30,294 bases of DNA from a virus: positions 1-30,294 of the IMG/VR virus record IMGVR_UViG_3300022074_000242. One strand, 5' to 3'. Shown here piece after piece: positions 12,186-20,646 of this stretch. The first letter of the stretch is position 1. Every line of letters starts with the position of its first letter. The notes below the pieces were generated by a model that saw nothing but the letters and a program-made list of their open reading frames with translations, searched no databases and was not told where the DNA came from. Both the position numbers and the translations under genes were made by a program.

Positions 12186-12260
12186 CTAAACGTGGGCATT
12201 AGGGGCATTCTGGAGGTTTTGGGGCATTCTGGGCATTCTGGGCATTCTGGGCATTCTGAT
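12186..12260. repeat. 9-bp repeat block A (GGGCATTCT units), iteron-like
   Basis: Six units lie in the + strand: GGGCATTAG (12194-12202), GGGCATTCT (12203-12211), a ten-base T-rich spacer, then four perfect tandem GGGCATTCT units (12222-12257). The same layout returns at 19902-19976 in the same orientation. The block abuts the stop codon of the RecA-fold ATPase and lies in a 190-base gap before the NinB-like gene. Iterated 9-mers beside a replication-type ATPase are typical of origin iterons or operator clusters; neither is proven. Confidence 0.85.
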
Positions 12261-16422: not shown

Positions 16423-17256
16423 CTATGCCGCTTCGTTGTCATACTTTCGCATGAGTTCAAACTGTGACATGCAATACTCGAATGCTTTCTGTGCATCCTT
16501 TGCCGCTGTCGTAATGTAACGAGGGTCAGACTTGATAGCTTTCTGCCATGACTTGATATAGCTGGCATGTTGGCTGATGTCATAGGTCACACCCAGTTGA
16601 GCGCATAGAAAGATAGACCCTAGCTCTGCTACCAACTCTTCTTTGGCATAGTCTTCGTGACCAAACGCACCAGTCAGATCACGATCAAGTCGCTTGCTGT
16701 GACCAGTAGAGTGAATGCACTCATGGTAGAACGCAGATTGATAAGCATCGTCAGATTCAAATTGCCCTGGCATAGGCATTCGGATCTGGTCAGCTGAAGG
16801 TGAGTAGCATGGATTGTGATGCTCTGCATTACTCACTTTAACTTGCAGTGCGTCGGCAATCTCGTTTGGATTTTTTAGTCTGCTTTCACGCAGTGGTATC
16901 TCTGGTAACTCGATACCTGTTTGGTCAATGTTGAATAGGTTGTACACCTTTGCAAAAGCGAACTCCTTTTCAGGATCTTTTTTATCCTTAGCTTTGCTAA
17001 AGAAGATTGCGGGTGTTGCCTTCTGGCCTTTGACGCTACCGCCAAGCTGTTGCACTTGGTTCCATGTCAGCCAGTAAGGTTTGGTGTAGCCGTATTTCCA
17101 GCTGGCAATCATTGCCATCAACTGGTTCGTGCCATTGTATGGGCGTTTGGTTACCCAGTTTTGGTGAAGGCAAGACTGTGACTCCCATGTCTTGCGCCAT
17201 GTAGTCTCGTCTGCCATAGCAGACTCAACGAGTTCAACGATTCGATCGTATTTCAT
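16423..17256 (-). CDS. ArdC-like antirestriction protein with zincin domain
   Basis: This protein has 277 residues from the ATG at 17256 (AAAAAGGAACTGTT ahead); a TTG 13 codons earlier has no such site. The N-terminal 120 residues match the ArdC N-terminal domain (NGTNQLMAM, YWLTWNQVQQLGGSVKGQKATPAIFF), a single-strand DNA-binding fold. The C-terminal half is zincin-like: HECIH at residues 178-182 with a further His186 and a downstream KEELVAELGS helix that may supply a third ligand. ArdC proteins protect incoming single-stranded DNA from restriction on plasmids and are widely found in phages. Flanking genes are small early types. The catalytic fold is clear; the target is inferred. Confidence 0.8.
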   Translation of the reverse strand: MKYDRIVELVESAMADETTWRKTWESQSCLHQNWVTKRPYNGTNQLMAMIASWKYGYTKPYWLTWNQVQQLGGSVKGQKATPAIFFSKAKDKKDPEKEFAFAKVYNLFNIDQTGIELPEIPLRESRLKNPNEIADALQVKVSNAEHHNPCYSPSADQIRMPMPGQFESDDAYQSAFYHECIHSTGHSKRLDRDLTGAFGHEDYAKEELVAELGSIFLCAQLGVTYDISQHASYIKSWQKAIKSDPRYITTAAKDAQKAFEYCMSQFELMRKYDNEAA

Positions 17257-17297
17257 AACAGTTCCTTTTTGGTTTTGGTTGTTAAACTTTATCAAAG

Positions 17298-19053: not shown

Positions 19054-19311
19054 TTACTTACCTGCGTTAGCTACATCGTGAAGGTACTCGCGTCGCTTCT
19101 CGATTCGCTCCAGCTCGGCCGCGACCGCGTCCTGTACGTTGAAGCTGAGCATCGCTTTGCCGGATTTTGTTTTCCGCTCCCACACCGCAATTTCTAACTT
19201 GCGACCTTCAAATAAAATCTCGCCTTTGTAAGTAGGCGCCTTGTCGGACTTTTCTAGGCCGCGATCGTTTTTGAAGGCGAGGCCGGAGTTAGGATTTAAT
19301 TTCAAAGACAT
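19054..19311 (-). CDS. DUF736-like small protein
   Basis: This protein has 85 residues. The motif SDKAPTYKGEILFEGRKLEIAVWERKTKSGKAMLSFNVQD is close in layout to DUF736 proteins (KAPDYRV...GxEIGAAWKKTSxxGxxYLSVKLDD), short proteins common in mobile elements of Pseudomonadota. Its final 25 residues form a charged helix. It has a clean AAGGAGAAATACT site and is followed by the UUCG terminator, so it can be expressed as a single gene. GC-rich codons set it apart from neighbours. Function unknown; nucleic acid binding is often proposed for the family. Confidence 0.55.
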   Translation of the reverse strand: MSLKLNPNSGLAFKNDRGLEKSDKAPTYKGEILFEGRKLEIAVWERKTKSGKAMLSFNVQDAVAAELERIEKRREYLHDVANAGK

Positions 19312-19336
19312 AGTATTTCTCCTTAGGTAAATTGGT

Positions 19337-19860
19337 GTCGTTTCCGACAGATGCAGGACTCCGACTGACGGGACAGAACTGCAAGGGGGTAGTCCGCGTG
19401 AATCGCGGAGGGTCTGCCCGCGGGTTTTTGCGGGTGGAAACCGTTATTCTCGCGGCCCTTGCGGGGCTGGCGCGGCTGGCGGATCCTAAGCAGATGACGG
19501 TTCGTCATCAATTTGCGTAAGGTAGGCATACACAAGTCTTTGACTTTGGAGCCTAACGTAGGCGCGAGCCGAGGAGACAGAGCAATAATTAACCGACAAT
19601 GCCTACGGCAATGGCGGGTTATTTGAAGCGAGCCTCTTCTGCGGTGTGGCGCGGAAGACGAAGCCGACGAAGACGAATCTCTGATTCGGCGCTCGGGGCT
19701 CGACGAGGCCGACTGACCGAAACGGGAGATCGATAAGGAGCTGTGAGGGTCCTTAGCGGACTCACACATTCAGCGGTGCGCTTGCGTATCGCGTGAATGG
19801 TAGCCGGTACACCCCCACGGGGGGGGTGCCCGGCGTACCGTGAGGGAAGTAGTTCCCACC
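19337..19860 (+). ncRNA. Candidate large structured RNA (novel or GOLLD/ROOL-type)
   Basis: This 524-base, GC-rich stretch lies in an 822-base gap (19312-20133) with no credible gene. It holds many stems that read best on the + strand: 19393-19409 (TCCGCG, loop TGAAT); 19411-19442 (CCCGC/GCGGG core extended by two G-U pairs); 19493-19509 (GATGACG, loop GTT); 19534-19546; 19551-19563; 19635-19658 (nine pairs, one U-G); 19674-19688; 19743-19765; 19767-19799 (14 pairs, CUUG loop, two G-U pairs); 19799-19839 (about 16 pairs); and 19844-19857. GTAGGCAT (19522-19529) can pair with ATGCCTAC (19599-19606) to close a multibranch domain around two of these hairpins; local alternatives for some bases exist. 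The G-U pairs would be C-A mismatches on the other strand. Size and phage context resemble GOLLD and ROOL RNAs; homology is not tested. No clear promoter was found. Confidence 0.65.
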
Positions 19861-19901
19861 CAGATACAAAAAAAGCGGATTTTGGAACCTCAACCCGGGG
19901 T

Positions 19902-19976
19902 CTAAACTTGGGCATTACGGGCATTCTGACCTTTTTCGGGCATTCTGGGCCAACTGGGCCAGCTGGGCATTCTAAA
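19902..19976. repeat. 9-bp repeat block B (GGGCATTCT units), copy of block A
   Basis: Starting CTAAAC as in block A, it shows GGGCATTAC (19910-19918), GGGCATTCT (19919-19927), a ten-base T-rich spacer, then GGGCATTCT, GGGCCAACT, GGGCCAGCT, GGGCATTCT (19938-19973). Order, spacing and orientation equal those at 12186-12260, exactly 7716 bp away. The second and third units of the tandem are diverged and contain CCAGCTGG (19959-19966), which also occurs at 12109-12116. It lies just 3' of the structured RNA candidate. Confidence 0.85.
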
Positions 19977-19993
19977 TAGGGTTTTTGCGGTTG

Positions 19994-20133
19994 CCTTAAC
20001 TTCCTGATTACTAAAGGAATAATCCTACGGTTTTTATTCCGTTAAGTTATAAGGTATAAAGAAGGTTGATCGGAGTCTATTTCATATATAGGATAGGGAG
20101 GGTGGGTTGGTTAATAGGACCCTTTAATTTTTA
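19994..20133 (+). promoter_or_regulatory. Regulatory leader before the packaging operon
   Basis: CTTAAC (19995-20000) and GTTAAG (20041-20046) enclose a perfect seven-pair stem GGAATAA (20016-20022)/TTATTCC (20034-20040). TATAAA (20055-20060) follows a weak -35 (TTTATT, 16 bases before). TTGATC (20066-20071) is 17 bases from TAGGAT (20089-20094). These are weak sigma-70 candidates for the rightward operon. A G-rich run (20091-20110) follows. No gene fits here. Confidence 0.35.
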
Positions 20134-20646
20134 ATGTTGATTACCATAAACAAGAGAGATGCTCACCAGTCAGAGTTGATGGGAGCAGACACAGTTAAGC
20201 TGTGTGAGATGCAGGGATTTCCCCCGAGGTTAGAAAACAAACGCCAGTCTAGGGTAGATGCAAATATTCTAGGATTTAAGGCTGAGTTTGCTGTAGCTCG
20301 TTTACTTCAAGTAGATCCACCGACAGTTAATGTGCTTACTGATGGTGGCGTTGATTTGTGGTTTGATAGTATTTCTATAGATGTAAAAACAACCAACAAA
20401 GAATATGGCCCGCTGGTATTTGATAACGCAAATAAGTTCCAAGCTGACATTGCGGTGCTGGTTGGGCAGTCTGAAAAAGAAAATACGTTAAGGATCAATG
20501 GCTGGATAGATAAACAATCATTCCTATCTAACTCTACGCCACATGATTATGGGTATGGGCCAAGAATAAAAATGGAAGTTAATGAGTTGCGCCCTATAGA
20601 GCAGTTATGGAAAGGCTTGATGGTAAGGAGATTCAGCGATGGCTGA
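20134..20646 (+). CDS. PD-(D/E)XK nuclease-fold protein
   Basis: This protein has 170 residues. The core reads LGFKAEFAVARLL (helix with a conserved Glu), then GGVDLWFDSISIDVKTT: an Asp in the first strand and an I-D-V-K motif in the next, the pattern of the PD-(D/E)XK superfamily. The rest continues the fold with FQADIAVLVG and GWIDKQSFL. Proteins of this kind sit beside terminase genes in several phages and may process DNA ends or branched DNA. The start codon ATG at 20134 has only a distant AGGA; an alternative ATG lies 15 codons later, but the longer form keeps a conserved-looking N-terminus. Stop overlaps the small terminase start by eight bases. Confidence 0.65.
   Translation: MLITINKRDAHQSELMGADTVKLCEMQGFPPRLENKRQSRVDANILGFKAEFAVARLLQVDPPTVNVLTDGGVDLWFDSISIDVKTTNKEYGPLVFDNANKFQADIAVLVGQSEKENTLRINGWIDKQSFLSNSTPHDYGYGPRIKMEVNELRPIEQLWKGLMVRRFSDG

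Follow-up and report, generated by a model that had tools for sequence, protein, structure and literature searches.

The window, a 30,294-nt stretch of viral DNA, belongs to a tailed phage, as it carries genes for a large terminase and a portal protein. It contains a gene-free gap, the true extent of which is 19312-20133, flanked by divergent genes: a leftward operon headed by an SSB-like gene and also encoding an ArdC-type antirestriction protein (Table 1), and rightward genes on the + strand that begin at position 20134. Neither a gene family nor a conserved open reading frame (ORF) was found in 19312-20133, and no tRNA was found in the gap. ORFs called mechanically there match relatives only piecewise, on both strands and wherever the DNA itself is conserved. 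Since such matches merely track conserved DNA, a conserved protein encoded in the gap was rejected, in agreement with an earlier sequence-only reading that had seen no credible reading frame in 19337-19860. A direct BLAST search of the gap against phage records gave no match.

Table 1. Features of the gap and of the leftward operon adjoining it
Feature	Position	Strand	Description
ArdC-type antirestriction protein	16423..17295	-	ArdcN + MPTase-PolyVal domains; same operon as the SSB-like gene; start codon uncertain
SSB-like gene	19054..19311	-	PHROG 18154, single-strand DNA-binding protein; heads the leftward operon; conserved hairpin on its template strand
Flanking hairpin	19336..19349	+	TGTCG-TTTC-CGACA; kept in phage relatives as YCGTTKCCGAC
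Long imperfect hairpin	19356..19486	+	basal helix P0: GGA(C)TCCG 19356-19363 with CGGATCC 19480-19486
Helix Pa	19381..19462	+	GCAAGGG 19381-19387 with CCCTTGC 19456-19462
Core element (model R1)	19386..19463	+	stem GCGTGAAT/ATTCTCGC, GCGG/CCGT, internal loop AGGGT/AAA
Apical stem of the core	19414-19421 with 19430-19437	+	part of model R1
Second conserved element, phage-only	19819..19879		G-run, about 20-25 nt, then (TATATATA)GTTCCCACCCAGATACAAAAAA(A)GCGGA; nearly invariant
Promoter-like TTGATC-N17-TAGGAT	20066..20094	+	upstream of the rightward operon; read off the alignment

Folding of the gap and anatomy of its conserved hairpin

The sequence-only reading had proposed 19337-19860 as a candidate 524-nt ornate RNA, such as GOLLD or ROOL or a new class. 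The region does fold better than its shuffled controls: 19312-19880 reached -250.4 kcal/mol on the + strand (z -5.5; z -4.25 on the - strand), and none of 100 shuffles folded as well. The four local helices named in that reading all form; those at 19411-19442, 19635-19658 and 19767-19799 are clearly better on the + than on the - strand, the largest stem (19799-19839) is equally good on the - strand, and the long-range 8-bp helix 19522-19529/19599-19606 (GTAGGCAT/ATGCCTAC) is present. By fold, the strongest pieces are 19337-19495 (z -4.0 with RNA and -5.6 with DNA parameters on the + strand, -2.9 and -2.8 on the - strand) and 19735-19860 (z -4.1 and -3.7, respectively); 19490-19640 is also structured (z -2.7 and -3.6). 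No clear folding excess was seen in 19640-19760 (z 0.4 with RNA and -1.9 with DNA parameters) or in 19860-20133, where z was positive.

Comparative support within the gap is limited to 19336-19486, which forms one long imperfect hairpin of about 150 nt on the + strand with the core consensus AAUYGCGGAGGGUCYGC..GYGGAAACCGYYAUU. Its basal helix P0 shows both-sided changes at six of eight pairs among 14 phages and was recovered unaided by RNAalifold. Helix Pa alternates between GGG/CCC, GAG/CTC and GAA/TTC in relatives, with a conserved CTTG in its 3' arm. At three core pairs, the + strand mostly has G-T/G-U or frequently has U-G, which would leave A-C on the complement. When contexts of about 300 nt were folded, the + strand was the better one in 42 of 47 distinct relatives with RNA parameters and in 44 of 47 with DNA parameters.

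Other noncoding features were noticed in this phage. The 19819-19879 motif, in which TATATATA precedes GTTCCCACCCAGATACAAAAAA(A) in most phage relatives, is almost invariant across phages with otherwise unrelated noncoding DNA, raising the question of whether it is an origin, a packaging site or a transcription site. The sequence at 20066-20094 falls below the promoter-scan threshold and was seen in the alignment instead, where phage relatives keep TTGNNN-N17-TAGGAT followed by GGGAGGGTGGG; it is likely the promoter of the rightward operon. A 72-bp repeat of GGGCATTCTG units occurs at 12186-12257 and 19902-19973, both intergenic, with 82% identity between the copies.

Relatives of the hairpin and covariation

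Relatives were viral contigs carrying the neighbouring genes. Positions 19331-19463 keep about 80% identity in phages with 39-58% identity in the SSB-like protein, while the middle of the gap is unalignable. An RNA spanning the whole gap was rejected, as its 3' half could not be aligned between relatives: about 150 nt are conserved and the remainder can be wholly different even beside a 99%-identical neighbour gene. Neither gap nor relatives gave anything credible in Rfam at gathering or permissive thresholds, a permissive scan of one relative yielding sub-threshold matches only. The sequence-only reading is thus borne out as to a real conserved + strand structure with G-U-type pairs particular to that strand, and not as to its 524-nt extent or its membership of GOLLD, ROOL or another Rfam class; with GOLLD and ROOL the window shares a large structured phage gap, without an Rfam match to either.

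A second phage type (L005/L094, L085, L097, L098, L012 and L055) has a different noncoding region in this gap and no match to the covariance model described below. In L094 (4020-4760), the endonuclease is 99% identical, and the gap is GC-rich and apparently structured noncoding DNA (GTGCCGAAGGGAATCCC..GGGATTACC) with no model match, yet with the same 3' phage motif.

Searching with a gapped pattern of the core turned up 20 viral and 44 bacterial contigs. A covariance model, R1, was seeded with 31 diverse members, the window among them. In the seed alignment, 91.5% of cells were paired and 67 were doubly changed, compared to 24.5 in shuffled alignments. The window scores 67.6 bits (E 2e-17); as the window and its relatives seeded R1, their scores are not independent. 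Independent matches came from plasmids, Pseudanabaena and genomes searched later. In all, R1 finds the core in related phages, bacterial genomes and plasmids. In the final alignment of 69 distinct copies, which was fitted to the model, 15 of 20 pairs were doubly changed, with 92.5% of cells paired (81.1% in shuffles) and 145 doubly changed cells (47 in shuffles). Independent MAFFT alignments agree with this covariation.

Carrier genomes searched held one to five copies. Carriers were rare in our draws of genomes (4 of 274 and 2 of 289, each count including the centre genome). BLAST matches in Ensifer (L206) and Salipiger (L207) were excluded from the family by R1, and an Arthrobacter locus (L125) was a chance pattern match of 16 bits. 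Another phage, L114 (6970-9194), carries the element (70.8 bits) in an imperfect hairpin of about 100 bp, flanked on one side by a small-terminase-like gene and on the other by a leftward-type operon that, as read by eye, encodes a DUF932-like protein, a family also present in the leading region of F.

Genomic settings in plasmids, conjugative elements and phages

The usual opposite-strand neighbour of the element is a gene for an antirestriction protein (ArdA or ArdC) or for SSB. For this gene, the folded strand serves as template in the phage as well as in most of the plasmid and genome contexts. Alpha-, beta- and gammaproteobacteria show such placement at genes for ArdA (PF07275), ArdC (PF08401) and SSB (PF00436), as does a conjugative MOBQ plasmid from the cyanobacterium Pseudanabaena; in phages the gene concerned is SSB-like. 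In most genome loci with a readable gene, the core lies 58-125 nt upstream of the start codon of ArdA, ArdC or SSB.

A relaxase gene often accompanies the element. Of ten genomes searched, seven (eight elements) have a gene for a MobA/VirD2 relaxase about 5-29 kb off on the contig of the element, examples being G010 C10 (4.7 kb), G094 C127 (5.6 kb), G017 C46 (7.4 kb) and G004 C3 (8.6 kb). Two Aureimonas show a weak TraG-type match 2.5-3.3 kb from the element, and in pDSHI03 relaxase and coupling-protein genes adjoin it. A BLAST search with a Rhodobacterales-type copy matched 223 plasmids, 150 of them typed as conjugative, although the permissive limit (E up to 10) means that the count includes chance matches. 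In all three plasmids checked among these, SSB or a relaxase adjoins the element; one of the three, the Sphingobium plasmid, has a copy below the R1 cut-off used. In L136 (5766-7420), two copies lie 1.5 kb apart, each upstream of a different gene (87 and 110 aa); neither gene has a Pfam match, both are candidates for establishment or anti-defence genes, and the contig also holds a relaxase and a T4SS gene.

The element is also present on rolling-circle plasmids. Plasmids of about 6 kb from Klebsiella and Enterobacter carry it at 54 bits; in these copies AAGG/CCTT stands in for GCGG/CCGT, and there is a GAA triloop. An E. coli plasmid carries a 40-bit copy. Genes for Rep_1 and for a MobQ relaxase are both present on the Enterobacter plasmid, whose copy is intergenic between two + strand genes, upstream of rep and on the rep sense strand. 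In replicons of the Rep_1 type, the rep-sense strand is the one displaced as single-stranded DNA (ssDNA). The copy is therefore a structured intergenic element on the displaced strand, as judged from the orientation of rep. Single-strand origins (sso) sit on this strand of rolling-circle replicons (PMC4595007).

Apical loops were compared with those expected of DNA and of RNA. CGNAG loops make up 28 of 60 distinct apical stem-loops (9.3 in shuffles); among the same 60, there were no TNCG and two GNRA loops. GNA and GNNA loops form extraordinarily stable DNA mini-hairpins (PMC4686876), and the G4 complementary-strand origin and the phiX174 F-G gap contain GGCGAAAGCC and GCGAAGC. The loop of the window itself is GGGTTTTT, which is not GNA, and GNA triloops occur in RNA as well, so that loop type favours ssDNA without proving it.

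Acting molecule, precedents and alternatives

Gene neighbours, the folded strand, C-GNA-G loops and presence on the displaced strand of rolling-circle plasmids together favour ssDNA over RNA as the acting molecule. We consider it probable that the conserved + strand hairpin (19336-19486) is a cis-acting single-strand initiation signal (ssi/sso), possibly doubling as an ssDNA promoter like Frpo; the acting form, the host enzyme and the role in the phage are what we infer from these settings. We propose that: the + strand would be exposed as the T-strand after conjugation, as the displaced strand of rolling-circle replication, or at some point while the phage replicates or enters; this strand would then fold into the long imperfect hairpin; a putative host enzyme (RNA polymerase or primase) might recognise the conserved core and start RNA there; and this RNA would read leftward into ardA, ardC or ssb, in conjugative elements and phage alike. 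With that direction of reading, one event could both prime the second strand and express antirestriction and SSB proteins early. The promoter half of this model is weak, as a shared -35/-10 pair on the hairpin arms, sought by eye, was not consistent: CTTG/TTGA is kept on the 3' arm, and no consistent -10 was seen.

Precedents exist for several parts of this proposal. Transcription from the folded T-strand upstream of ssb is known for Frpo (PMC11541004), and the Frpo/ssi ssDNA promoters of conjugative plasmids (Masai & Arai 1997, as cited in PMC11541004) share with the element a long imperfect hairpin, on the template strand and immediately upstream of ssb and antirestriction genes. The region upstream of F ssb folds like the element. 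However, the F leading region and F Frpo lack an R1 sequence match, and the element differs from Frpo in that no shared -35/-10 was seen by eye and in occurring also on rolling-circle plasmids and in tailed phages. The sso of rolling-circle plasmids and sso1 of ICEBs1, a precedent for a role shared by conjugation and rolling-circle replication (PMC4595007), are likewise structured, strand-specific and intergenic, near a relaxase gene or upstream of rep; the element differs in being found in Proteobacteria and on one cyanobacterial plasmid. The G4 origin and the phiX174 F-G gap resemble it in their hairpins with GNA or GNNA loops. When R1 was run against the F, G4 and phiX174 single-strand sites there was no real match, the best (14.3 bits, phiX174) arising through the arms alone. 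By sequence, the class thus appears to match neither Rfam nor the F, G4 and phiX174 regions tested, though it may coincide with a published ssi site of pIGRK or a related plasmid. STAXI (RF01728) also lies near SSB and antirestriction genes, and its authors considered ssDNA (PMC2864571); it consists of tandem pseudoknots with UUCG loops, whereas the window has one hairpin unit, and RF01728 had no match in the window or relatives at the Rfam gathering score. EGeRS1 of pLS20 (PMC8708921) is, like the gap, a structured region (400-750 bp in EGeRS1) upstream of ardC. As pLS20 transfers its non-template strand, a structure ahead of ardC does not suffice by itself (PMC8708921); the element folds on the template strand. 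The ssDNA model requires the folded strand to be the transferred one in its carriers; if it is the opposite strand the model fails, as argued for pLS20 (PMC8708921). Two further observations count against it: a tailed phage with double-stranded DNA has no obvious single-stranded entry phase, and on several Rhodobacterales chromosomes the element lies between ordinary genes.

The foremost alternative is a new class of structured noncoding RNA made from the + strand, divergent to ardA/ssb; it would serve mobile elements as a small RNA in regulation or anti-defence. Covariation and G-U pairs suit RNA equally and do not separate it from ssDNA, the antirestriction neighbours suit an anti-defence RNA, and at some ardA loci the core is followed on its 3' side by a terminator-like hairpin and T-run. 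However, the T-run is absent at most loci, no convincing or conserved sigma70 promoter for a + transcript was found upstream of the element in 25 loci, and an RNA would favour GNRA or UNCG loops, not the GNA loops that dominate. As such an RNA would also leave both the template-strand placement at ssb/ardA and the presence on rolling-circle plasmids unexplained, we regard this explanation as unlikely. Less likely still is a cruciform promoter of the phage N4 kind, in which the hairpin is extruded from supercoiled duplex, or a structured site where a protein binds and regulates the leftward operon. The element does usually adjoin an early or establishment operon, and N4 promoters use small DNA hairpins, but extrusion is poor when the arms are long, imperfect and contain G-T wobbles, a bias towards one strand is not expected of a duplex site, and a virion RNA polymerase was not noticed in the window. 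A leader role for the - strand RNA, in which the element would be the 5' UTR of the leftward ardA/ssb transcript and act in attenuation or translational control, would fit its short distance from the start codons but is very improbable, since the - strand folds worse and has A-C mismatches in place of the dominant pairs, and the Rep_1 plasmids have no annotated leftward gene beside it.

Returning to the single-strand initiation signal, we suggest more tentatively that the element may represent a widespread and undescribed class of ssDNA-acting hairpins, common to conjugative plasmids and ICEs, rolling-circle plasmids and double-stranded DNA tailed phages; such a hairpin would start RNA, prime the second strand and turn on antirestriction and SSB genes. 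The element ties these three kinds of mobile DNA together, and if it is an ssDNA signal, mobile DNA would have an undescribed means of starting up in a new cell. Only a few plasmids have yielded known ssi-type sites or ssDNA promoters, which are difficult to detect from sequence. As this class has a covariance model, it is directly searchable, and its copies could point to establishment genes, among them unknown anti-defence genes adjoining the element. If the proposal is true, the early operon of these phages would be exposed as, or read from, single-stranded DNA, which raises the question of why a phage with double-stranded DNA keeps a single-strand signal before its SSB/ArdC operon.
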